64,000 nt of DNA from Cerasicoccus maritimus (GTDB lineage Bacteria; Verrucomicrobiota; Verrucomicrobiia; Opitutales; Cerasicoccaceae). The position numbers were made by a program, and so were the translations under genes. The notes beneath the pieces were generated by a model. That model did no database searches. It was not told the origin of the DNA and worked only from the letters and a program-made list of their open reading frames with translations. Below are positions 45,903 through 61,103 of this stretch, piece by piece (position 1 is the stretch's first letter; each line of letters begins with the position of its first letter). Location: the NCBI GenBank assembly GCA_031296935.1, contig JAVDPD010000022.1, positions 43,262 through 107,261 on the forward strand, in the 5' to 3' direction.

Positions 45903-46865
45903 GTGACGCGAGTGGCAATCATTGTTGAGTCCTTGGAACAAGCAAAGGTTGCCGGCTCGCTACACTTGGCTTTGGGCATGTTCGATGGTGTCCACTTGGG
46001 CCACCAAGCAGTTATTGAGTCGGCAGTGCACTCCGCCCGTCGCACGGGTGGCTATGCCGGAGTGCTGACTTTTGATCCGCATCCAAGCACGCTGTTTCGT
46101 CCGGATAATCCCACTCGCTTGCTACAGCCGCGTTCGGTCAAAGAGCACTTGCTCAGCGAACGTGGTGTGGAATTGATGATTTTTCAGCGCTTCAGCAAGG
46201 AGTTCGCAAGTGTGGTCGCCGAGGATTTTCCGGCAATGCTACGCAGGCATTTGCCGACGCTTAGGTCGCTGCATATCGGCGAAAACTTTCGTTTCGGTAA
46301 AGGTCGATTGGGCGACATCACGTCGCTGATTGCCGCTTGCCAACCCCTGCGCATTGGAGTGTTTAGCGTCGAGCGCATCAAACATAATGGCGAGCCGATC
46401 AGTAGCACGCGCATTCGACAGGAGTTGGAGGAAGGGCGAATTGATGAAGTCAACGAGCTGCTCGGTTATACGTATTTTTCGCTGGGTAAGAGTATTCCCG
46501 GTCGGCAGTTGGGGCGCACGCTTGGCTTCCCCACACTCAATTTGCGTTGGAATCCGGAACGTAAGCCTAAGTTTGGCGTTTATGCGGTTCGTGTGCGCTC
46601 TGCGAACGACGAGACAGCTCCTTGGGAAAACGCCGTAGCGAATTATGGAGTGCGTCCCACTGTAGAAAATGCTGATGCCGAGCCGTTGTTGGAAGCGCAC
46701 ATACTCTGCGATACAAAGTTAAAAACTGGCGACCGTCTGATGGTCGAATGGGAGCACTTCATGCGGCCCGAACAAAAGTTTTTATCGCTGGATGCGTTGC
46801 GTCAGCAAATTGGTGAAGACAAAGCTGCCGCAGAGGCCTGGTTTAGGGGGCAGTCCGCTTACTAG
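45903..46865 (+). CDS. ribF: Bifunctional riboflavin kinase / FAD synthetase
   Basis: Makes FMN and FAD. 320 residues from a GTG start. The N-terminal nucleotidyltransferase has LALGMFDGVHLGHQAVI near 21-37 (HxGH-type motif), TFDPHPSTLF near 61 and ISSTRIRQELEEGRIDE near 165-181. The C-terminal riboflavin kinase shows PGRQLGRTLGFPTLNL near 199-214 and the Asn/Gly-rich NYGVRPTVE near 246. Last gene of the nusA operon; its end overlaps the convergent FUSC gene by four bases. Confidence 0.95.
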   Translation: MTRVAIIVESLEQAKVAGSLHLALGMFDGVHLGHQAVIESAVHSARRTGGYAGVLTFDPHPSTLFRPDNPTRLLQPRSVKEHLLSERGVELMIFQRFSKEFASVVAEDFPAMLRRHLPTLRSLHIGENFRFGKGRLGDITSLIAACQPLRIGVFSVERIKHNGEPISSTRIRQELEEGRIDEVNELLGYTYFSLGKSIPGRQLGRTLGFPTLNLRWNPERKPKFGVYAVRVRSANDETAPWENAVANYGVRPTVENADAEPLLEAHILCDTKLKTGDRLMVEWEHFMRPEQKFLSLDALRQQIGEDKAAAEAWFRGQSAY

Positions 46866-49135
46866 AAAAACGCGCTGCGTTTCAGTACTTCAAAGTTCAG
46901 TTTGCGGATTTCCTGCTCGCAGGCATTGATGTATTCGCCGGCTTCGCGGTAGCGTCTCACCAAGCTGAGAAATGCACCGAGTTCTTCATTGCTCAGTTTA
47001 CGCGTGGCGCGATCGACGCGCAGGAGTTTTGTCAGTTGCTTTTCCATCTCAATGCGTGCGGTTTTGAAATAATCGGAGCCTGCAATTGGGGCGTTTGTTT
47101 GAAATGACAGCTCGCAACGTTGCAATACATCGGCCAAGGCGTGATCCATCGCTTTGAGTTGAGGTCGAAGCAGATCTAGTGTTTCGCGATTCAGGTTGCG
47201 AGCATTGGCTTGAGACATCCCTCGCAGCGCGAAGGAAATCGCCTGCACATGGAGGTAAATCTGCATGAGTGTCGCGTGATCCTTTGATTCATTGTCGCGG
47301 AAACCAATCTGGCTCAGCCAATCAAATGACTTTGCGGGAATGACCTCAATCCTCGCCAAGTCCTTTTCTTGGGCGCGTCCCGTAGCATCAGATTGTTCGC
47401 TTGCTATGCGATCATCCTGCTCGAGCATGAAGCAGCGAGCACGGTTGAAAAACTGTCGAAGCTCACGAGCGAATTCCTTTTCAGGCAGTACGGGCCAAAT
47501 TATCCGGTGCACCAATGCGGCAATGAATACGCCCAGGAGTATACCCAGAAATCGATCTACGCCAGCGGCTAAGTCTATGCTTTGCTCGGCGGAGATTGAG
47601 GTCATTAGTAAAAATGCGAGTTGGGCCTGAAAGCCCGCATAGGCGTATTTTACCGGGCCGTTGTTGATCCATGAGAAAAACGCGAAAATGAAGAACAGCG
47701 GCACGCAGTAAGTGTAATATGTGGCAAAATTGGGTTCGATAAACGTGAGGGTGAAAGCGCCGAAAATTCCACCCAACAAGCAACCGCCCAACCTGAGCAT
47801 AGACTTCTGATTACTCGCCACCGCCGAAACTTGCATGACGATTGAACAAGTCAGGAACGACGTCACCCCAGACGGCCACTGTAGCCAGAGATAGGCATAG
47901 AGTGCGATAATACATGCAATACCGACCTTGATAGCGTGTCTGAGGCGTAGAGCGTCTGGCTTCCAGCCATTAGGCTTTGGGCGGATACGCGGGGGGAGTT
48001 CGCGGGCAGAGGCGTCGCGATAAAGCGCACGGTCGGCCTGCACCAGGCGGATCATCGAGTCGTGCAGGGCGGTTAAGTCTCCCAGGTAGGCGTAGAAGTT
48101 TATAGCGTCGTCGACAGCATATTGATATGAGATGCCTTCGGCGCGAAGGGCATTAACTTTGTCCCGCAAAGTTTCCCGTGCATCATGAAGTTTCGTTAAG
48201 CGTCGGGCAGGGCGGTCTTGGCGCAAGTCTTCAATAATTTGCGACAAGTCAGACTGAATAGCGCTAACATATCCGTCGAGCTCTGCTTGAAGTTCATGCT
48301 GAAGCTCTTTCGGGAAATCACTGCTCGCTGCGCGCAACACGGTTACGATTGCTACATAGATTTGACGCATTTCGCGCAAGAGCTCTTCCATCGCATGTTG
48401 GTGATGCAGAATACGACTGCTGTCGCGCAAGGCGGAGTGAAAGAGATTCATCAATGCAGAAAAATCTGCAGCAATGAGTTTAGTCTGCGCTTCAACGTTG
48501 TCCGGGAGCGGAGTGTTCGTTTGATATTTGGCGATGGCATGGCCAAGGAGCGTGTCACAGCTCTCCAAGGTAGTGGAGGCCTTATTACGAAATGCATTGG
48601 ACGCTTTCTGTGGAAAAATCAGGTTGTTGACGGTCAGTGCAACGACTACGCCCAGGCAGACCTCCAACGTGCGGAACAACACCAAATACCAAAGAGCGTC
48701 CGGATAGACAATGGTTGTGCCCAGAATGATGCACAGGGTGATGCCACCCAAGATGAAGAAATAGGGGTAAACCTTGCCCGTTCCGCCGTAGCCGAAAATC
48801 CCAAGGATAACGAATAGCGAAATGGTCATCATTAACTGATCTTGCTCAAACCAGCCGGTGAGTAGGTAGGCAATGAAGCCAGCCGTGATTGTGCCCAATA
48901 CGCGCAAGACGGATTTCTCAAACGCTGCGCCAACGTAGGGCAGAAAAGTAATGAAAACCGTGATGCCTGTCCAATAGGGACGTTCCCAGTTCAACTTCAT
49001 TGCGATGCCCAATGCAATCACAACAGCCAAGGCAGTCTTGAAGGAGGTGAGCAGTCGCAGTTGGTTGGCCGAAAGCATGGCGCGCAGAAGTGGATTAATC
49101 AGGATTGTCTTTAGCTGCGAAATCTTTGCAATCAT
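46862..49135 (-). CDS. FUSC-family inner membrane efflux protein (AaeB/YccS-like)
   Basis: 757 residues from the ATG at 49135; the frame continues to 49186 but overlaps the divergent gene. Two blocks of about five to six membrane helices each (roughly 20-170 and 400-560) flank a cytoplasmic helical region (about 190-380), and a further helical tail follows: the layout of the fusaric acid resistance/AaeB family. FKTALAVVIALGIAMKLNWERPYWTGITVFI near the N-terminus is typical. It diverges from a DUF1656 gene and an AaeA-type adaptor gene 72 bases away, which together would make an AaeXAB-like pump. Substrate unknown, probably aromatic acids or other small amphipathic compounds. Confidence 0.87.
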   Translation of the reverse strand: MIAKISQLKTILINPLLRAMLSANQLRLLTSFKTALAVVIALGIAMKLNWERPYWTGITVFITFLPYVGAAFEKSVLRVLGTITAGFIAYLLTGWFEQDQLMMTISLFVILGIFGYGGTGKVYPYFFILGGITLCIILGTTIVYPDALWYLVLFRTLEVCLGVVVALTVNNLIFPQKASNAFRNKASTTLESCDTLLGHAIAKYQTNTPLPDNVEAQTKLIAADFSALMNLFHSALRDSSRILHHQHAMEELLREMRQIYVAIVTVLRAASSDFPKELQHELQAELDGYVSAIQSDLSQIIEDLRQDRPARRLTKLHDARETLRDKVNALRAEGISYQYAVDDAINFYAYLGDLTALHDSMIRLVQADRALYRDASARELPPRIRPKPNGWKPDALRLRHAIKVGIACIIALYAYLWLQWPSGVTSFLTCSIVMQVSAVASNQKSMLRLGGCLLGGIFGAFTLTFIEPNFATYYTYCVPLFFIFAFFSWINNGPVKYAYAGFQAQLAFLLMTSISAEQSIDLAAGVDRFLGILLGVFIAALVHRIIWPVLPEKEFARELRQFFNRARCFMLEQDDRIASEQSDATGRAQEKDLARIEVIPAKSFDWLSQIGFRDNESKDHATLMQIYLHVQAISFALRGMSQANARNLNRETLDLLRPQLKAMDHALADVLQRCELSFQTNAPIAGSDYFKTARIEMEKQLTKLLRVDRATRKLSNEELGAFLSLVRRYREAGEYINACEQEIRKLNFEVLKRSAFF

Positions 49136-49207
49136 AAGGCGTTGATGATTCGGATGCTCGGCACATTTTTCGATGAAACCATCCAAGGGAGGGTGGGGGG
49201 CTCCGTC

Positions 49208-49435
49208 ATGGCGCTGCTTCCCGATATCTCGCTGAATCCAGAGCTGGATGTTCTGGGGTTCTACGTGCCGTTTTCATTTTTCATAGTAACTTTGGGGTTC
49301 ATGCTGGCATGGGCATTGGCTTGGGCAATGGATCGTCTTGGACTGACGCGCTTTGTTTGGCATCCACCTCTTTTTCTCTTTGCCATGATGGTTGGCTGTA
49401 GCGCCGGCCTTGGCTTACTCCTGTTTCCTCGCTGA
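49208..49435 (+). CDS. DUF1656 small membrane protein (AaeX-like)
   Basis: 75 residues from the ATG at 49208, preceded by a G-rich ribosome site. The frame is open upstream to 49142, but that would add a 22-residue polar tail. Two membrane helices (about 15-37 and 50-70). FYVPFSFFIVTLGFMLAWALA and the short basic end LLLFPR fit the DUF1656 family that is encoded with AaeA and AaeB. Its stop overlaps the next start (TGATGA), so it is coupled to the adaptor gene. Confidence 0.83.
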   Translation: MALLPDISLNPELDVLGFYVPFSFFIVTLGFMLAWALAWAMDRLGLTRFVWHPPLFLFAMMVGCSAGLGLLLFPR

Positions 49436-51207
49436 TGAAGGGTTTGCTTAAAGTTGTGCTGACGTTGCTTGCGGTGGTGGCCGCGGGGGCATTGGCGTGG
49501 CGCTTTTATCAGCTATACGAATCTCATCCATGGACGCGTGATGGGCAAGTGCGCGCCTACGTGGTGGGCATTGCCGCGCGAGTGGATGGTCCGATAGTCA
49601 ACGTCTACGTGAGAGACAATCAGTGGGTCGACGAGGGCACGCCCTTGTTTGAAATTGATCCCACCGACTACGAAAAGGCAGTTCGTCGAGCGGAAGCGGC
49701 ATTGGAAAAATCCAAAACCGTGGCGGCAAACTTGAAACTTGAGGTTGATCGTAGACGTGATCTGGTGTCGCAGAAATTAATTTCTCTGGAAACATTTCAG
49801 GACTTCGAGGCACGGTATTTGGAAGCCGTGGCGGATATCGCTGTCGATGAGGCACAGCTGGAGCTGGCGCGCTTAAATTTGAGCTACACTAGGGTCAATG
49901 CGCCGGTTAGTGGCTACATCACTAACCTCGAAGTAACCACGGGCTCATATGTGACCACTGGGCAACCGCTCATGGCGTTGGTCGACGCGAGCTCATTTTG
50001 GATCTCCGCCTATTTCCGGGAAACCGATTTACAGACAATCAAGCCCGGGGATCGCGTTCGTATTGTGATGATGGGAGATTTCTTCGAACCCTTTCATGGC
50101 GAGGTGGAGAGCATTAGCTGGGGCATTTATCGGGAGGACGGCGCTAGTAACTCCACGACGCAGCTTCCGGTGGTTCAACCGACGGTGGACTGGGTGCGCT
50201 TGGCGCAGAGGTTCCCGGTGCGCATCAAGCCGCTCAATTTGCCGGAGGACATCAAACTGCGTGTTGGGCAGACGGTATCCGTAATGATAGACCCGATTGC
50301 AGAGTCGGATTTTGAAAGCAAGAAAGGCTATCAGTCGGCCGGCACAACGAGTTACCCCAAGCAGCTAAAGGATGGTCGCGGCGCGGAAGTAGTCATCAAA
50401 AAGAAGCCTGAGCGGGTGATTAGCCTTGCGCCAAGCACTACGCAGTGGATGCGTTGCATTGGGTTGGAGTCCAAATTGATTGGAGCGACTAAGTTTTGTG
50501 AACTCAGTGACGCGCATCAAGATATTGTCCGCTACGACACCTATCCGGCACCCAACTTTGAAGTAGTCGTTGGTGCGAACGCTGATCTCATCATCACGGC
50601 CGACATTATGGATCCGCAGCATGTTGCCAAGTTGCGTGCCTTTGGGCAGACAGTCCTCGTGCTGAATAACGATGGCTTCGAGGGTATTTTGCTGGATGGC
50701 GCATTGCTTGGCGAGGCTATGGATCACGCTGCTGAAGCACAGTCGATAATTGCTGATTTGGAGGATGAACGCGCTGCTGTAGTGGGGGCTGTTGCTGGGC
50801 GTAACACTAAACCGAGTGTATTGCTGGCGCTGAGTCCGACGCTAGAATACGTAGCTGGGCCGAGAAGCTATGGCGATAATTTGATCCAACTTGCTGGCGC
50901 TAAAAATGTCGCGGAAGGCGCGCTTTCGATGTGGCCCCAGCTTTCGCGAGAGGCGATAATTCAGGCCAATCCTGATTGCATCATCGTAACCCAAGCAATG
51001 CCTGAAGGCGAAGCCAAAGCTCTAGCGGATGTAACGGCAATTTTGGAAACAGATCCGTTTTGGCAGAATTTACAGGCAGTGAAAAATGGCCATATTTATG
51101 TGGTGGATCCGCAGTTATTGAATGTGCCAGGGCCTCAGATTGGCCAAGCACTAAAAGCAGTCCATGCGGCGATTAGCGAGTCAGTTCAATCGGCAGCCGT
51201 TGAATAA
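49435..51207 (+). CDS. Fusion: AaeA/HlyD efflux adaptor plus BtuF/FhuD-type substrate-binding domain
   Basis: 590 residues in one frame. Residues 5-23 are an inner-membrane anchor. Residues 32-288 are a complete AaeA-type adaptor: TRDGQVRAYVVGIAARVDG, VYVRDNQWVDEGTPLFEIDP, a coiled hairpin (about 78-145), the YTRVNAPVSGYI half-barrel and a beta-barrel to about 288. A short linker (289-304) leads to residues 305-585, a complete helical-backbone binding protein of the BtuF/FhuD/TroA class: YPKQLKDGRGAEV, PERVISLAPSTTQWMRCIGL, ANADLIITADIMDP, YVAGPRSYGDNLIQLAGAKN and KNGHIYVVDP. The binding domain has no signal peptide of its own and would be tethered in the periplasm. No ABC permease or ATPase is nearby. 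Such a fusion is unusual; function unknown, perhaps capture of a chelate or ligand for export or sensing. Confidence 0.85.
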   Translation: MKGLLKVVLTLLAVVAAGALAWRFYQLYESHPWTRDGQVRAYVVGIAARVDGPIVNVYVRDNQWVDEGTPLFEIDPTDYEKAVRRAEAALEKSKTVAANLKLEVDRRRDLVSQKLISLETFQDFEARYLEAVADIAVDEAQLELARLNLSYTRVNAPVSGYITNLEVTTGSYVTTGQPLMALVDASSFWISAYFRETDLQTIKPGDRVRIVMMGDFFEPFHGEVESISWGIYREDGASNSTTQLPVVQPTVDWVRLAQRFPVRIKPLNLPEDIKLRVGQTVSVMIDPIAESDFESKKGYQSAGTTSYPKQLKDGRGAEVVIKKKPERVISLAPSTTQWMRCIGLESKLIGATKFCELSDAHQDIVRYDTYPAPNFEVVVGANADLIITADIMDPQHVAKLRAFGQTVLVLNNDGFEGILLDGALLGEAMDHAAEAQSIIADLEDERAAVVGAVAGRNTKPSVLLALSPTLEYVAGPRSYGDNLIQLAGAKNVAEGALSMWPQLSREAIIQANPDCIIVTQAMPEGEAKALADVTAILETDPFWQNLQAVKNGHIYVVDPQLLNVPGPQIGQALKAVHAAISESVQSAAVE

Positions 51208-53150: not shown

Positions 53151-53507
53151 TTAACGTTTGCCGCCACGAGCGGTATTGATCGAGGAGACCGTTATGGCAA
53201 TCAATTCATTTGCCTCTTCCATCAGTGGTTCTAGCTTCTCGCTTTTCATAATCTCGGCATCACGGATCATTTCCAACCAGAAAAGAGTCTCGTCGGCTTC
53301 TTCTTCAACGATTCCAAGTTTGGCTATGAAATCAGCTTTAGATTTGGCGCGACATGCCGCTCGATAATTTGCCGCGACCGAGCACGCACATCTGCCTATT
53401 TGATTGGCAAATATTCTACTCGAGCGACCTTCCGATAACGCCTCAACTAATTTGAGAATGCGGAGAGCGAAGGTTTTTGTTCGGATTTGTAGATTTTCGC
53501 TACCCAT
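53151..53507 (-). CDS. Four-helix-bundle protein (23S rRNA IVS / S23 family)
   Basis: 118 residues, almost entirely helical. Family signature: RTKTFALRILKLVEAL near 9-24, RSSRIFANQIGRCACSVAANYRAACRAKS near 28-56 (interface of the bundle) and ETLFWLEMIRDAEI near 77-90. Homologues are encoded in intervening sequences of 23S rRNA genes and as accessory proteins (Avd) of diversity-generating retroelements; they form pentameric barrels that bind nucleic acid. Here the gene sits in a 427-base cassette flanked by inverted repeats, suggesting a mobile or formerly mobile unit. The start codon overlaps the right repeat. No reverse transcriptase is present. Confidence 0.88.
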   Translation of the reverse strand: MGSENLQIRTKTFALRILKLVEALSEGRSSRIFANQIGRCACSVAANYRAACRAKSKADFIAKLGIVEEEADETLFWLEMIRDAEIMKSEKLEPLMEEANELIAITVSSINTARGGKR

Positions 53508-53540: not shown

Positions 53541-55295
53541 TTATTCGTCGGCCATGGCCAAGTCCGGCTCGAATTCCACCGTGAGGCGGTATTGCTGGCC
53601 GGGGCGCATGATCAGCGGGTGGTCGCGCTTCAAGGACTGGAGGTAATGGAGCTTGCCCCAGTAGGTCTTGTAAGCCGGGTCCGCAGTGACGGATTCGGTG
53701 TCCCACTCCGCGTGGAAGTCATCCTTGACCACGGCGGGGCGGAGGCCTTCCGGACCGTTGGTAAAGGTCATGCCGGAGCGGTATTGGCTATGCGGCATGC
53801 CGAGGGCAATTACATAGCGCATAGAGTCCATCGAGACCTGCTGCTTGACGCTGAAGACGAATTCGCTGGTCATCTTGCCGCCTGTGAAGGTCCAGGTGAC
53901 CTTGCAGGAGCCGAGGCCGCTAACGAATTCTTCGTCCTTAGTGATCAGGTCTGGCTGCTCGTAGGAGAAAGTCAACGCGCCGCGGAGTCCCTGACGGATG
54001 GTGCAACGCTTGCCGTAGAAGGAGGGGATGATCACCTTGTCGCCGAAGGTCAGCTCGGGCAGAAGGATCGGCGCATACTTGCAGACGGGCCAATCGATCA
54101 CGCCGGGAGCGTGCGGGAAGGCGAGGGAGTCGCTGAAACGTTCGCGGCCCTGGCTGATCAGCGGGATCTGCACGTGTAGGCCGCTTTCCGGGTCGTGATA
54201 CATGAACAGGCCCTGTTCCTTCTTGTGAGACTTGTCGAAAACAACAAAACGGCTGACACGCTTGGGCGTGCTAGGCTTGGCGTCCATAGCGCCGCCAATA
54301 GAGCGCGCGAGACGGGCCCACTGACACAGGTAACGCGCCGCGTCGAAATTGGCCATGCGCGTAGTGTGGTTGTCACCAGTGGTACGCTCGTCGTCACGGA
54401 TGACAAGGAAGCCATGTTCGCGGTCGACGTAGGTCAGGAAAAAGAATTGGAAGAGGCGACGGAGCAGGTCGATGTACTTCGGCTTGTCAGTATCGGTGAT
54501 CCACCCATCACGAAGGGACTGGAGAATCAGACTAATGCAGTGCATTTGGCCGTAGGCACCGATGCCGCGGCCATAGGACCAGCCCATGCCGTCGAGGCGG
54601 ACGATGTCCGGGAGCATCTTCAAATACTTCTCAGCGTGCGTGCGCAGGCTCGGGAGCTTGCGGTCGCGCAGGTGCATGTTGGCGTGCAACTGTAGGGACT
54701 GGCGGATGAACACGAAGCTCAGAATGCCATAAAGATCGAAGCACCCACCGATTTTGGCCGGCTCGTCATCCATGAAACCAGCGGTGCTGTTTTCCTTGAT
54801 GCGCTCGATGAAGCGGTCCACCAGCTTGCCGGTTTCGTCCTTCTTGGAGAGGCCCATCGAGAAACGGGTAACGGCCTTGGCGATGTTGAACGATTGGAGG
54901 TGGTTATCGTAGTCGCTCCGCTGCAGCAGGCGCTTGTCCAGGGTTTCCTGGGTCTGCTCGAGCAGGCGTTCCCAAACGGGATTACGCTCCTTGGCCGGGC
55001 TGAAAGAAAGCAGGCCGAGAGCCGCGTAGGCGAGGCCGTTTTCCGCTTCTTCATCGGTGAAGGTCTGCGCTGTAACAGTGCGCGCGACGAGGTCGACTAG
55101 GTCGTAGTCGCCAAATTTCGTGTCGTTCGTGAGTCGGTAGTATTCACCGATGGCGAGCGCGGCGTGGCCCGGCTCGTCCGTGCGGGAATGCTCGCCGTCG
55201 ATCGGGCGAATGGTTCCATCCTCATTGATGGCTTCCAGATTGTGGCTCAGGATGGCCTGGGCCATATCCAGGCACTGGTCAGCAAAGTTCTGCAT
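53541..55295 (-). CDS. Large protein of unknown function, toroid plus beta domain
   Basis: 584 residues, no signal peptide, not assigned to a family. The N-terminal two thirds (about 1-340) is helical with repeated pairs typical of an alpha/alpha toroid (FADQCLDMAQAILSH, EPGHAALAIGEYYRLTND, GMGWSYGRGIGAYGQMHCIS, DAARYLCQWARLARSI). The C-terminal third (about 345-580) is beta-rich (GLFMYHDPESGLHVQIPLIS, QQYRLTVEFEPDL). This two-part shape resembles polysaccharide lyases and related glycan enzymes, but no catalytic motif is certain. The lack of a signal peptide would place it in the cytoplasm. Confidence 0.6.
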   Translation of the reverse strand: MQNFADQCLDMAQAILSHNLEAINEDGTIRPIDGEHSRTDEPGHAALAIGEYYRLTNDTKFGDYDLVDLVARTVTAQTFTDEEAENGLAYAALGLLSFSPAKERNPVWERLLEQTQETLDKRLLQRSDYDNHLQSFNIAKAVTRFSMGLSKKDETGKLVDRFIERIKENSTAGFMDDEPAKIGGCFDLYGILSFVFIRQSLQLHANMHLRDRKLPSLRTHAEKYLKMLPDIVRLDGMGWSYGRGIGAYGQMHCISLILQSLRDGWITDTDKPKYIDLLRRLFQFFFLTYVDREHGFLVIRDDERTTGDNHTTRMANFDAARYLCQWARLARSIGGAMDAKPSTPKRVSRFVVFDKSHKKEQGLFMYHDPESGLHVQIPLISQGRERFSDSLAFPHAPGVIDWPVCKYAPILLPELTFGDKVIIPSFYGKRCTIRQGLRGALTFSYEQPDLITKDEEFVSGLGSCKVTWTFTGGKMTSEFVFSVKQQVSMDSMRYVIALGMPHSQYRSGMTFTNGPEGLRPAVVKDDFHAEWDTESVTADPAYKTYWGKLHYLQSLKRDHPLIMRPGQQYRLTVEFEPDLAMADE

Positions 55296-56140: not shown

Positions 56141-57364
56141 CTACTCGTAGCGCAGGGCGTCAATCACCGGCAGGCGGGCGGCTTTGATCGCAGGAAATAC
56201 CCCTGACAAAAAGCCAACGACTACGCTGAACATGAAGCCCCAGCCCATTGCCTTAGCCGAAAGCGCGACATCGCCTTTGTCTTCGGGAATGAAGTCGCGG
56301 AGCAATTCAACGAGCCCTACGCTGGCAATGATACCGATTAGGCCACCGATCACGCTAATGACGAGCGCTTCGGCGACAAACTGGATGAAAATGTCGCTGC
56401 CCCGAGCGCCAACTGCCTTGCGAATGCCGATTTCGCGAATTCGCTGGGAAATTGACGCCAACATAACGTTGGCAATGCCAATACCGCCGACAAGCAGAGT
56501 AATGGCCGCTACGCCGCCTAACGAATAAACGAATGATCGCTCCAATTCTTGGAAGTCCTCCAATTCCTTTTCACGTGTTTCCACGTTGAAATCCTTAATG
56601 CCGCGATGAGTCACCAGCAGCGTGCGCTCAATCTGATCGCTCAAGTCGGGAATGTCTTCCATCCTTTTTGCCTGGACGCCGAGATCATGAATTGTGTCGT
56701 CATCAGGTTCAGCAAAGTAGTGGATTGCGGTAGAAATCGGAATGAAGGTCGATCGAGAACGGCTCCAGGAATCTGTTTCATCGGGCTCAATGACTCCAAT
56801 TATTGTGAACACGACTCCGCGAGTAACAATCGTTTCGCCGACTGCATCGGAAGAGTTACCAAAAAGGCGTTTGGCGGTTCGATCAGTTAGAATCATAACG
56901 CGGGTTTTCTGTTCCACATCCCAGTCTGAAATCGCACGTCCACCTTCTCGCATGTAGAAGCGCTCGATCTCAAAAGTCTCGGGTGTAGTGCCGCGTAGAC
57001 GAGTCCACTCACGCCGGGTGCTGCTCTGCAAAGGAGTCCAATTCAAACTTTTTTCTGCCGAAACACGTCGAGCATTCGGCACGGCTGCCTGTAGCGCGTA
57101 ATAATCCTTCAAGGTGCGACGAGGTGAGCGATGCGCGTAAGGCTGCTGCTCGATGGGTGGCTCGGCATGCTCGATTTCCATCTTCTCGATGCCGCCGGTT
57201 GCTTCAAAAGTTTTGCGAAAGCCTGACATCATACCTTCGACGACACCCACCATCGCGACCAGCGCGGCCACACCGAGGATGATGCCGATCATTGACAGCA
57301 AGCTGCGAAATTTATGAGAGCTGATCTCGCGGACCCCATGCACGACTGCGCCAGCGATCATCAT
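56141..57364 (-). CDS. MacB-type ABC transporter permease
   Basis: 407 residues: helix 1 near 22-44 (GIILGVAALVAMVGVVEGM), a large periplasmic domain of the MacB_PCD type (about 50-275), then three helices (near 285-310, 340-365, 372-395) forming the FtsX domain. ASISQRIREIGIRKAVGARGSDIFIQF near 308-334 is the coupling helix that contacts the ATPase. Overlaps the ATPase gene by four bases. MacB-type pumps act as mechanotransmitters driving export of substrates from the periplasm through TolC. Last gene of the four-gene unit. Confidence 0.92.
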   Translation of the reverse strand: MMIAGAVVHGVREISSHKFRSLLSMIGIILGVAALVAMVGVVEGMMSGFRKTFEATGGIEKMEIEHAEPPIEQQPYAHRSPRRTLKDYYALQAAVPNARRVSAEKSLNWTPLQSSTRREWTRLRGTTPETFEIERFYMREGGRAISDWDVEQKTRVMILTDRTAKRLFGNSSDAVGETIVTRGVVFTIIGVIEPDETDSWSRSRSTFIPISTAIHYFAEPDDDTIHDLGVQAKRMEDIPDLSDQIERTLLVTHRGIKDFNVETREKELEDFQELERSFVYSLGGVAAITLLVGGIGIANVMLASISQRIREIGIRKAVGARGSDIFIQFVAEALVISVIGGLIGIIASVGLVELLRDFIPEDKGDVALSAKAMGWGFMFSVVVGFLSGVFPAIKAARLPVIDALRYE

Positions 57365-58080
57365 TGCTGTTCCTTTCCAGCGTGAGGGAAACGATCCTCG
57401 GGGCCATCTTCTTCTCCACCGACCAAGTGCCCGTCGCGCACAAGAATGATGGAGCGTGCGTGTTGGGCCACTTCCAAGTCGTGGGTGACGAGGATTAGTG
57501 TTTGGCCCTCGTCAACCAGGGCATCAAAAAGCTCCATCACGCGCTCGACATTTTTGGTGTCGAGATTACCGGTGGGCTCGTCAGCCAGGATGAGCTTCGG
57601 GTTGTTGACAAGGGCGCGGGCAATGGCGACGCGTTGACGCTCTCCTCCGGATAGCTGGCCCGGACGATGGCTGATGCGGTGCGTCATATCCACCCGAGCG
57701 AGCGCTTCCTTGGCCAGATCGTCCTTTTTGCGGTCGCTACGTGCGTAGTCGAGTGGCAGGCGGACGTTTTCCAAAATGCTCAGGCGGGGGAGGAGGTTGA
57801 ATGTTTGAAAGACGAAGCCAAGACGGTTAGCCCGATACCAGGCACGTTTGGCGGCGCTGAGTCGGGAGACGTCATCGCCGTCGAACAGCATTTTACCGGA
57901 AGTCGGAAAATCCATGAATCCGAGCAAGTGCATGAGTGTGGACTTGCCCGATCCCGAGGGGCCCAGGACGGCGGAATACGAACCTATCTCGATGTTCAGC
58001 GTGATCCCGTCGAGTGCTTTGACGGTTTCGTCGCCCATCTTGTAGTGCTTGCGGATGTCCTGGAGTTCGATCAGCGCCAT
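57361..58080 (-). CDS. MacB/LolD-type ABC transporter ATPase
   Basis: 239 residues from the ATG at 58080; a TTG three codons upstream is also possible. Walker A GPSGSGKSTLMHLLG near 40-54, Q-loop FVFQTFNLLPRLS near 90, signature LSGGERQRVAIARAL near 143-157, Walker B LILADEPTGNLD near 163-174 and switch His in LVTHDLEVAQHA near 195. The sequence type is that of MacB/LolD/FtsE ATPases that pair with FtsX-type permeases. Sits between the adaptor and permease genes. Confidence 0.95.
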   Translation of the reverse strand: MALIELQDIRKHYKMGDETVKALDGITLNIEIGSYSAVLGPSGSGKSTLMHLLGFMDFPTSGKMLFDGDDVSRLSAAKRAWYRANRLGFVFQTFNLLPRLSILENVRLPLDYARSDRKKDDLAKEALARVDMTHRISHRPGQLSGGERQRVAIARALVNNPKLILADEPTGNLDTKNVERVMELFDALVDEGQTLILVTHDLEVAQHARSIILVRDGHLVGGEEDGPEDRFPHAGKEQQ

Positions 58081-58092
58081 GCGAGCCAAAGG

Positions 58093-59181
58093 TTAAGAAT
58101 CAGCATTCGGCTTATCTTCTTCAGGGCGAGTCAGGCTGACTTTGTCGCCTACGTTGAGCCCTTTGATGACCTCAACGAAGTGGACGTCGCTCAAGCCGGT
58201 CTCCACCACGACTTCTTCCCAGACGTCGCCTGCGGATTGCCGGTAGGCCACGAAGCCATCTTTCGACTTAAAGAGCGCCGTCGGAATAACTACTGGCACG
58301 TCGTCAACCTGATTGAGGGGGAGGGTCACCGTTGAGCTAATGCCGGGGCGGATGCGGTCGTCACCGGCTTCGAAAGTCACTAGAACACGAAAAATTCGCT
58401 CATTGCCCTCTGACTCTGCATAGCTGAAAATTTGGGAAACTTCGCCGACAAACTCCTCGTCCGGCAGGGCATCAAAGGCAACACGCGCTTTCATGGCCTT
58501 CTGTATCTTGTTGATGTCCAACTCGTTCACCTTAGTGCGTACGTGTAGTTTGAGCAAGTCGTTGATCGTCATCAAAGTCGTTCCCTGGTTGACGGATGTG
58601 GCACCGGTGATGACTTGCCCGGGATTGAGGTCAAAGTTGCCAACCACACCTTCATGCGGGGCGCGGATCGTTGTTTTGGCCAAGTTGTCTTTGGCTTTTT
58701 CCAAACGAGCTCGGCGCACCTCCAGCTCAATTTCCATGAGGCCTAGCTCGGTTTTTGCGTCGAGGAAATCCTTTTCATTAGTAAAGTTTTTGGCGCGGAG
58801 GTCTTCCAGGCGTGCGTAGTCACGCTGGGCTTGTTTGAGGCGGAGGGCCTGGGCTTCATACAGACGCTCGGCTTCTTCGAGTTCGGTTTCGCGTTCGGTT
58901 TTCTCCAGTTCAAGGAGGATTTGGCCAGCTTCGACAGTATCGCCATCTGCGATGTGGATCGTTTCAATGCGGCCAGTAATCTCAGAACGCACCTCGGTGG
59001 AGATTACGGGCTCCACGTAGCCGCCGGCATTGACTACATCTTCGATGGAGCCAATGGTTACCTCCGAGGTTTGCAGCGGCTTGCTTTTGGTCTTTTCCGA
59101 CTCTTTCTCGAGTCGGGTCCAGGTCCACCAGCCTCCGGCAATAAGCAGGCAAACTATGATTATGGTTGGCAGGCTTTTCAT
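58093..59181 (-). CDS. MacA-like periplasmic efflux adaptor
   Basis: 362 residues. Residues 3-20 form a membrane anchor or signal. The barrel-sandwich domain shows VNAGGYVEPVISTEVRSEITG near 51-71 and DGDTVEAGQILLELEK near 78-93; a coiled-coil hairpin (about 95-165) carries ARLEDLRAKNFTNEKDFLDA; TTIRAPHEGVVGNFDLNPGQ near 171-190 closes the sandwich, followed by beta-barrel and membrane-proximal domains to the end. It links the MacB-type pump to the TolC-like channel. Three bases after the tolC-like stop. Confidence 0.92.
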   Translation of the reverse strand: MKSLPTIIIVCLLIAGGWWTWTRLEKESEKTKSKPLQTSEVTIGSIEDVVNAGGYVEPVISTEVRSEITGRIETIHIADGDTVEAGQILLELEKTERETELEEAERLYEAQALRLKQAQRDYARLEDLRAKNFTNEKDFLDAKTELGLMEIELEVRRARLEKAKDNLAKTTIRAPHEGVVGNFDLNPGQVITGATSVNQGTTLMTINDLLKLHVRTKVNELDINKIQKAMKARVAFDALPDEEFVGEVSQIFSYAESEGNERIFRVLVTFEAGDDRIRPGISSTVTLPLNQVDDVPVVIPTALFKSKDGFVAYRQSAGDVWEEVVVETGLSDVHFVEVIKGLNVGDKVSLTRPEEDKPNADS

Positions 59182-59184
59182 GTG

Positions 59185-61056
59185 CTAGTTTTCCATTCCT
59201 TGATAAGTTTCCGTCAGCGCATCGGGCACGTTTCCGTAGCTGGCGGGTAACGTGGCTGGCTCTTGGTTGAAGCTGTTAAATTCCGGTGCGGGCCAGCGCT
59301 CTTCGCTCAATGGGGCAATTGGGGTGGGCGGGGTTTGCGTCCCATCATCGACTTCATCCCAGTTGAAACCGTGGCGCGCGAGGAGGCGTCCATCGAGGCG
59401 AGCGAGCAAGACGACGGCTTGGCGTAAGTCGTAGAGTGCGGCCAGGTGACGCAGCTTTGCGTTGTCGAAGTCGCGTTGGGCTTCCAGCACGTTGCGGAAA
59501 TTGGAAAGACCGGCGTCGTAGCGCGCGCGTTCCTGCTCAAAGCTTTCTTCGTTGAGCCGCAGGGACGCGCGGGTGGTGGCCAGGCGCTCGCGGCCCGAGG
59601 CGATGGAGCGCCATGCCAGGCGTAGACGGCGCATTAGCTCTTGTTGAATTTCGGCCAAACGTGTTTCGGCGCGGTATACTGAGCGTACTGAGCTGCGCAA
59701 ACGGGCTTCCTGTGCACGCATGCCCCACGGCATACTGAACTCCAGGCCGACGTTCCAGTCATAGCCTTTGGATTCGAAGGCGCTTTTGTATGAGTAGTCA
59801 GCGCTGGACTCTCGCCCGAGGACGCCGGCTCCCGCATAGAGATCCAAGTCAGGAAGCGTATTGTTGTTGGCGACTTTGACATCGACACCCAACTGATCGA
59901 TCAACTCTAGCTGGATCTGGCTATCCATGTCGCTGGATAAAGCCCCGGTAACGCTGTCACGAAACTCTGGCAATTCAGGATCATTCTCAGGTAGTGGCTC
60001 CACGGCCAGCGGGTTAAGGGACTCTGAATACAGCACGCCGAGCACCGAGCGCAGACCGTCTTCTGCATTGTCCGCAGTTTCCTGAGCCAGAATCACATCT
60101 TCACTGCGAGCGGCTAGGGACGCTTCGGCCTGCAAGACATCCAGTCGGGTCGCCAGGCCAACGCGCTCGCGTTCGAGGTTTTCCTCGAGCAGAGATTTTG
60201 CGAGGCGGAGATTGGAAATATAGAGCGCCTGACGCTGACGAGCAGCGGCAAGATTCCAATAAGCCATCTCGACATCGGCGATTAAATCGAGCACTTCACG
60301 GCGAACCTCTAAGCGACTGGAGCGAAGGCCAATACGTGCTTTGGTAACGTCCGCCAAGTTGACTGTCTGGCCAAAACCAGACAAGAGTGGCTGGCGGAAG
60401 CTCAAACCCAGTCTTGTGGAATAATCTGGGTTGAGCAGGGCGTTGCTGGAGTTGGTGGTGGCGCGATTGAGTCGTGTCCCTAGAGAGACTTCGGTGCCGT
60501 AAGTAAAGCGCTTATCGACGCTGAGGTTAAACTGCTGGTCGGCATTCACTGCGCGGCCTGATGATACGCCAGAAAGAGAGGAGGAGGGGGGGGAGCCACT
60601 TTCATCTGCAGTTAATGAGGCATTGATCGTAGGATCAAATGCGGCCTCGGCGACCGTCAATGTATCGAGCGAGATGCCTGGAGAATAACGAGTAATGCTG
60701 AGCCCCAGGTTTTTTTCCAACGCCAAATCAATAGCCTCGCGCAAAGTTAGCTGCATTGGCGCGATGTCTGTATCGAGATCCATTACCAGTGGGCTTTGGC
60801 GAACTATTTGTAGAATATCGATGTCGGCTTCGAGGCCGCTTTGATAATCTGAATAGCCAGTTTGCGTAGTGTTCCAGATGTTCAACGCATCGAGTGCGCG
60901 GGCTGATGCGTGCTCATTGGCCGGCGTTTCTGACTCCATTGGTGATTCGGCCATCGTATCTGGCTTGAGAGGGTTTTCCGCATGTACTGCAACCAATCCC
61001 AGGCCGAAAGTCAGGGGGAGAATTACTTTATCAAGATGGCTTTTACGGGAAAACAT
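59185..61056 (-). CDS. TolC-family outer membrane efflux channel
   Basis: 623 residues from the ATG at 61056, with a signal peptide (DKVILPLTFGLGLVAVHA near 9-26). It is longer than usual TolC (about 450-500) because of a polar N-terminal extension of about 75 residues and a C-terminal tail. Two OEP repeats are visible: MQLTLREAIDLALEKNLGLSI (near 99) to FSLRKP-like strands, and the second around EARLRSSVRSVYRAETRLAEIQQEL; YDAGLSNFRNVLEAQRDF near 525 is the typical end of repeat two. First gene of the tolC-macA-macB(ATPase)-macB(permease) operon. Confidence 0.92.
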   Translation of the reverse strand: MFSRKSHLDKVILPLTFGLGLVAVHAENPLKPDTMAESPMESETPANEHASARALDALNIWNTTQTGYSDYQSGLEADIDILQIVRQSPLVMDLDTDIAPMQLTLREAIDLALEKNLGLSITRYSPGISLDTLTVAEAAFDPTINASLTADESGSPPSSSLSGVSSGRAVNADQQFNLSVDKRFTYGTEVSLGTRLNRATTNSSNALLNPDYSTRLGLSFRQPLLSGFGQTVNLADVTKARIGLRSSRLEVRREVLDLIADVEMAYWNLAAARQRQALYISNLRLAKSLLEENLERERVGLATRLDVLQAEASLAARSEDVILAQETADNAEDGLRSVLGVLYSESLNPLAVEPLPENDPELPEFRDSVTGALSSDMDSQIQLELIDQLGVDVKVANNNTLPDLDLYAGAGVLGRESSADYSYKSAFESKGYDWNVGLEFSMPWGMRAQEARLRSSVRSVYRAETRLAEIQQELMRRLRLAWRSIASGRERLATTRASLRLNEESFEQERARYDAGLSNFRNVLEAQRDFDNAKLRHLAALYDLRQAVVLLARLDGRLLARHGFNWDEVDDGTQTPPTPIAPLSEERWPAPEFNSFNQEPATLPASYGNVPDALTETYQGMEN

Positions 61057-61103
61057 GAGTCCAAGCGAGACAGGCAAAGGAAATCAGTTATCACCAGATG
61101 GCC

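Follow-up and report, generated by a model that had tools for sequence, protein, structure and literature searches.

A BtuF-like binding domain fused to the AaeA/HlyD-type adaptor of a FUSC pump and conserved across a bacterial family

Why would a binding protein of the importer type be carried on the adaptor of an exporter? The question is raised by one gene in the 64,000-nucleotide stretch of DNA analysed here (the window), where 590 codons run without interruption at 49435-51207 on the plus strand. An earlier note had read this single frame as a complete adaptor followed by a complete binding domain, and the ORF listing, Pfam and NCBIfam confirm that reading. The gene, its parts and two of its neighbours are as follows.

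46862..49078, minus strand: FUSC-family pump gene (PF04632, E 3e-60), divergent in 9/10 genomes
49145..49435, plus strand: gene for a small DUF1656 (AaeX-like) membrane protein (PF07869, E 4.6e-14), present in 10/10 genomes
49435..51207, plus strand: fusion gene, AaeA/HlyD-type adaptor and BtuF-like PF01497 domain, 590 aa (ORF, Pfam, NCBIfam)
49435..50298, plus strand: adaptor part, residues ~1-288, with an N-terminal hydrophobic segment and lipoyl/hairpin/barrel parts (Pfam, AaeA alignment, AlphaFold hairpin)
50299..50349, plus strand: linker, residues ~289-305, varying in sequence and length among genera (alignment of fusions)
50350..51204, plus strand: BtuF-like binding domain, residues ~306-590 (PF01497, E. 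coli BtuF alignment, invariant residues)

HlyD_D23 (residues 44-227, E 3.6e-18), HlyD_3 (E 1e-17) and Biotin_lipoyl_2 all score above their Pfam cut-offs within residues 1-245, and the N-terminal segment reaches a hydropathy maximum of 2.27 across 19 residues. Positions 3-288 of the 303 in the NCBIfam AaeA model align with residues 6-295, and the PF01497 (Peripla_BP_2) match at residues 328-560 runs from profile position 1 to 234, with 235 in all (95.5 bits against a cut-off of 27.5; E 4.2e-27). Given this near-complete coverage of the two models, neither half appears truncated. The score against the AaeA equivalog model is 192.1 bits, below the 400-bit cut-off, and the adaptor is thus AaeA-like rather than AaeA; the BtuF equivalog model gives 59.6 bits, below its cut-off of 234. 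AlphaFold2 with five sequences gave a mean pLDDT of 55.2 and a pTM of 0.34. The lipoyl and hairpin part of the adaptor was modelled with confidence (block means 78-94, residues 51-180) and the PBP part with low confidence (block means 25-69, mostly below 60); its strands and helices round a helix at 435-453 would resemble the expected fold, a likeness to which we give little weight.

The ATG of the fusion shares one base with the end of the upstream DUF1656 gene, whose ORF is listed as 49142-49435 with the ATG at 49145 as the likelier start. The FUSC ORF is listed as 46862-49186 and probably starts at 49078, judged by the starts in relatives. The earlier note asked whether orthologues keep the fusion together with these neighbours, and in this family nearly all do: the fusion is found in 10/10 genomes, DUF1656 adjoins it in all ten (G001 being read via the Cerasicoccus frondis record), and FUSC is divergent from it in nine. 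The exception is G006 (L032, G006:C37:1222000-1240000), with the fusion and DUF1656 present and no FUSC gene in the 18-kb stretch. By its domains, hydrophobic segment and gene neighbours, the N-terminal half is a HlyD/AaeA-type adaptor of a FUSC pump. The absence of importer genes near the fusion, also remarked upon in that note, is borne out at the locus, where a BtuCD-type permease and ATPase have no representative. An AI-2E-family permease gene lies 3' of the fusion on the opposite strand (Pfam), and no OEP gene stands beside the fusion among the annotated neighbours.

Elsewhere in the window, a second, separate export cluster at 56141-61077 (minus strand) encodes a MacA-like adaptor, a MacB-like permease, an ATPase and an OEP; the OEP gene at 59185-61077 belongs with this MacAB-like set. 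A gene for a 23S_rRNA_IVP (PF05635) four-helix protein at 53151-53507 (minus strand) lies between hisF and the gene for a 584-aa protein. A similar ORF is found in G002 (L038), and none was seen there in G003 (L039). The 584-aa protein (53541-55295, minus strand) has a counterpart of 91% identity in G003 and no Pfam match at E<=0.01.

A search of 54 genomes, the own genome included, gave matches at E<=1e-40 in eleven: the ten genomes of family f1 and G013, where the match is a standalone PBP and not a fusion. In all ten, which span four genera, the fusion is a single frame; the two matches reported in G007 are one frame of 629 codons. The nine other fusions are 43-73% identical to the window protein and the ten align end to end, with 16-61 residues separating the last adaptor proline (P287) from the first conserved PBP residue (D313). 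Joining of two genes by an assembly or sequencing artefact, which the earlier note had named alongside two-gene orthologues as what would overturn its reading, can be dismissed in practice, as 9/9 other genomes are fused in frame and each of the ten has one open frame. In the G006 match, the TAA scored as internal is the terminal stop codon of the frame. G001 is C. frondis NBRC 105381 (its stretch L009 is contained letter for letter in that record) and was counted once; with this species among its members, f1 most likely corresponds to Cerasicoccaceae (PMC10288369).

A branch with 99/99 support separates the ten fused domains from all other rows of a 42-row PBP tree. When 384 genomes of the class were queried with the PBP part (best six candidates per genome), 43 had a match at E<=1e-12. 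Fused frames (591-705 codons) occurred in seven of these genomes, all from f1; all other listed PBP matches lay in frames of 261-468 codons, and no fusion was found outside f1. A whole-protein query of 387 phylum genomes, considering the best three candidates per genome and therefore a weak negative, likewise found no fusion outside f1; at the same depth, nine genomes outside the family matched at E<=1e-35 through the adaptor part only. Among plasmids, 1863 of 72,556 records matched and none covered 80% of the query. The scan of genome contigs returned C. frondis and three Acidobacteriota adaptors, and that of viral contigs nothing that was confirmed. As for a two-gene ancestor, tblastn detected no PBP gene beside the standalone adaptors at nine loci (L129-L136 and L141). 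Because the fused domains form one clade and the other samples hold no fused frame, the fusion seems to go back to a single event and to have been retained since.

Mean identity between genera is 61.7% for the adaptor and 37.7% for the PBP (33 pairs). The dN/dS values of 0.035-0.051 (adaptor) and 0.085-0.113 (PBP) are rough, with dS saturated and 3/6 pairs computable per half; both halves are under purifying selection. In three of the four g3 genomes (L014, L015 and L016), a long Pro/Ala-rich tail follows the PBP domain.

What, then, might the fused domain bind? Its solved relatives by sequence are led by the iron-binding 4m7o and include heme-binding proteins and E. coli BtuF (E 1e-15 to 1e-9); taken by themselves, these similarities do not decide the type of ligand. 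The alignment to E. coli BtuF is more specific. Six residues line the BtuF cavity, namely Y50, W66, W85, F162, F168 and W196 (PMC5269720). Every one of the ten fusions has an aromatic residue or His at the positions of Y50, W66, F168 and W196: five F/Y and five His at Y50, nine Y/F and one His at W66, Y/F at F168, and W at W196, with which residue W500 of the window protein aligns. W85 is lost in all ten, with A or S in its place, and at F162 the fusions vary between L, T and Y. In the own genome's heme-type PBP, the Y50, W66, F168 and W196 positions read S, I, R and F. Of the fused domain's 18 Glu, just two are invariant, E376 and E506. Their counterparts in the alignment are BtuF E72 and E202, which we take to be the permease-docking pair that forms salt bridges with arginines of BtuC; two Glu drawn at random from the 18 would be E376 and E506 with a chance of 1 in 153. 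All 27 standalone rows, two of them repeats, likewise have both docking-aligned Glu, which may therefore be kept for the fold. Taken with the apparent B12 auxotrophy described below, the pair would favour import or leave it open.

Binding of heme by the fused domain is unlikely: the VGYIR stretch, whose Tyr is presumably the heme ligand, occurs in each of the family's ten heme-type standalone PBPs and is absent from the fused domain, which also lies apart from these proteins in the tree. The "BtuF/FhuD-type" label of the earlier note stands as regards the PF01497 domain and can be sharpened. On the basis of the gene neighbours of its relatives and the pocket positions, the fused domain appears BtuF-like and closer to the corrinoid (BtuF) type than to FhuD.

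The need for a corrinoid receptor can be judged from the gene content of the family. Genes for MetH and the two subunits of methylmalonyl-CoA mutase (MCM) are present in the own genome, and B12-binding domains are found in 10/10 family genomes. CbiC was found in 0/10, against 7/14 control genomes, and the family members are presumed to be B12 auxotrophs. Cobalamin riboswitches above the cut-off were found in 0/10 family genomes, with weaker matches in three. PF01497 proteins number exactly two in every family genome, one being the fusion and the other of heme type, and a single FecCD is strong (E<1e-80). Further FecCD matches are weaker (E 4e-14 or worse, some above the cut-off) and probably represent other metal permeases. 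The strong FecCD is grouped with an ATPase, a PBP and HemS in all five f1 genomes inspected, which represent all four genera. For the own genome, Pfam confirmed HemS, the ATPase of this operon scores above the heme cut-off (291.9 vs 261 bits), and the best solved relatives of the heme-operon PBP are heme-binding proteins. The permease of this operon best fits BtuC models, below their cut-offs, which would count against a purely heme reading of the operon. In a FecCD tree with weak deep branches, the family FecCDs and six others share one side of a 98/93 branch, apart from the FecCDs that adjoin BtuF-like PBPs. The BtuC arginines R56, R59 and R295 are kept in the family FecCD (10/10), as in nearly all other FecCDs. 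With B12 enzymes encoded, CbiC absent and FecCD located in a heme-type operon, the fused domain would be the only non-heme-type PF01497 protein of these presumed auxotrophs.

The standalone relatives point in the same direction as the pocket. TonB receptors lie near the PBP in 5/12 loci of the order. G011 has a TonB receptor, the PBP and MetH together; at this locus (L165, G011:C16, 5706-12340) the three genes stand side by side and the receptor fits TonB-B12 best. G180 has MetH, a TonB receptor, FecCD and the PBP. A TonB receptor is found near the PBP in G013 and G047, and DUF4465 together with a TonB receptor in G029 and G203. TonB-B12 is the best NCBIfam model for three of six receptors (G011, G013 and G180; 231-254 bits, not reaching the cut-off of 599.7), and a siderophore model fits best for the other three (G029, G047 and G203). 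DUF4465 is a B12-binding family (PMC13398666), with a tested member from Coraliomargarita akajimensis. At L169 (5167-9141) and L073 (4919-9000), DUF4465 and a TonB receptor are divergent from an anchored BtuF-like PBP.

FUR-family genes adjoin the PBP or lie within 2 kb of it in four order genomes (G013, G019, G189 and G029); such genes near BtuF-like PBPs were observed at L037 (10926-11309), L076 (7722-8126), L170 (9069-9404) and L073 (10596-11162). Given these genes and the three of six receptors that fit siderophore models best, an iron chelate is possible as the ligand.

The BtuF-like PBP is unlinked from a strong FecCD in 11/12 genomes of the order, the exception being G361; this count leaves out G030, whose match proved to be a heme-type PBP, and it includes divergent, maybe non-orthologous PBPs (G025, G044, G028 and G388) and several pairs on separate contigs. 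Outside the order, the two were linked in 7/7 genomes tested (of 24). In G011, no FecCD was found at E<=1e-30, leaving a B12-type locus with no inner-membrane permease. In four order members (L037, L073, L078 and L169), an N-terminal hydrophobic segment, recognised by eye, precedes the PBP.

We tentatively favour, at a probability of about 40%, a tethered corrinoid receptor that acts on a permease in trans. An old single fusion would have put a BtuF-type, probably corrinoid-binding, receptor onto the adaptor of an AaeXAB-like FUSC pump and placed it at the inner-membrane end of that adaptor, which would serve as membrane anchor and oligomeric scaffold. The domain would capture a corrinoid in the periplasm and pass it to a permease in trans, most likely the FecCD of the heme operon. 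As some relatives in the order are anchored and most lie away from FecCD, the ancestral BtuF may have been anchored and trans-acting, its anchor later replaced by the adaptor. This reading draws on the pocket positions kept in 10/10 fusions, the invariant docking-aligned Glu and the FecCD Arg kept in 10/10, on the relatives beside TonB-B12-like receptors, MetH and DUF4465, on a family that needs B12 (MetH, MCM, B12-binding domains) and has no CbiC, and on the unlinked BtuF-like PBPs of the order. However, it leaves unexplained why the receptor was joined to a complete adaptor beside its pump, and the single FecCD is already served by its own PBP. The Glu pair is as invariant in the standalone rows, two of the six cavity positions are lost, and His stands at the Y50 position in five of the ten fusions. 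The FUR-family neighbours, the siderophore-model receptors, the lack of a cobalamin riboswitch and PDB matches led by iron and heme binders also speak against it.

The fusion and the gene order themselves, with DUF1656 in all ten genomes and FUSC in nine, bind the domain to the pump, and the domain might instead catch a periplasmic ligand and deliver it to the FUSC pump or switch the pump on. AaeAB and MdtNOP are efflux systems (PMC8277102), and a precedent exists in SilB of Cupriavidus, an adaptor with a C-terminal CusF-like metallochaperone domain (PMC4446572). In a metal RND pump, that domain of SilB may play such a part. Yet export of corrinoids would be unexpected in a B12 auxotroph, the docking Glu pair is kept, and neither an outer-membrane partner nor a substrate is known; we place capture or gating for export second, somewhat below the tethered receptor in probability. 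A pure sensor, in which ligand binding alters the assembly state of the adaptor and the ligand is not handed on, would accord with a PBP that diverges faster than the adaptor while keeping its pocket positions. For a sensor the permease-docking Glu would be superfluous, and we hold this reading to be improbable. More improbable still is that the FUSC-DUF1656-adaptor complex with its BtuF-like domains forms a non-ABC inner-membrane corrinoid transporter in place of BtuCD. FUSC proteins of known function are exporters and G006 has no FUSC beside the fusion, even though the family has no corrinoid-type FecCD and its sole BtuF-like domain sits on this complex. G011, from another family of the order, combines a TonB-B12-like receptor, the PBP and MetH and has no FecCD at E<=1e-30, which suggests that the order has a further route across the inner membrane.

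The fusion can be set beside several known systems. AaeXAB, for p-hydroxybenzoic acid efflux in E. coli, and MdtNOP also encode an AaeX-type small protein, a HlyD-type adaptor and a FUSC pump together. AaeA and MdtN have no binding domain, whereas the fusion described here has 590 aa, scores below both the AaeA and MdtN equivalog cut-offs (NCBIfam) and has its FUSC gene divergent. With BtuF, of the vitamin B12 importer BtuCDF, it has in common PF01497, four of the six cavity positions as aromatic or His and both docking-aligned Glu; unlike BtuF, it is tethered to an adaptor, its locus has no BtuCD, and its score is below the BtuF equivalog cut-off. SilB, too, is an adaptor with a ligand-binding domain on its C-terminus (PMC4446572), but there the domain has the CusF fold, the ligands are metal ions and the pump is of RND type, as against PF01497 and FUSC in the fusion. 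Anchored, unfused BtuF-like proteins from this order (L037, L073, L078 and L169) belong to the same PBP subfamily, have an N-terminal hydrophobic segment and no FecCD in their loci; they are separate genes beside TonB receptors, with a short anchor and no adaptor. The open-access literature, which was the scope of our search, holds no description of a HlyD adaptor-PF01497 fusion that we could find, in agreement with the earlier note, which knew of none.

An importer-type part and an exporter-type part are thus joined in one chain that is conserved across a family. This leaves two alternatives: the cell keeps its corrinoid receptor on the adaptor ring of an efflux pump, or the pump has acquired a periplasmic domain that gives it high-affinity specificity. 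The fusion also exposes a gap in the order at large: in its B12-dependent members the BtuF-like protein is seldom linked to FecCD, and G011 yielded no FecCD at E<=1e-30.
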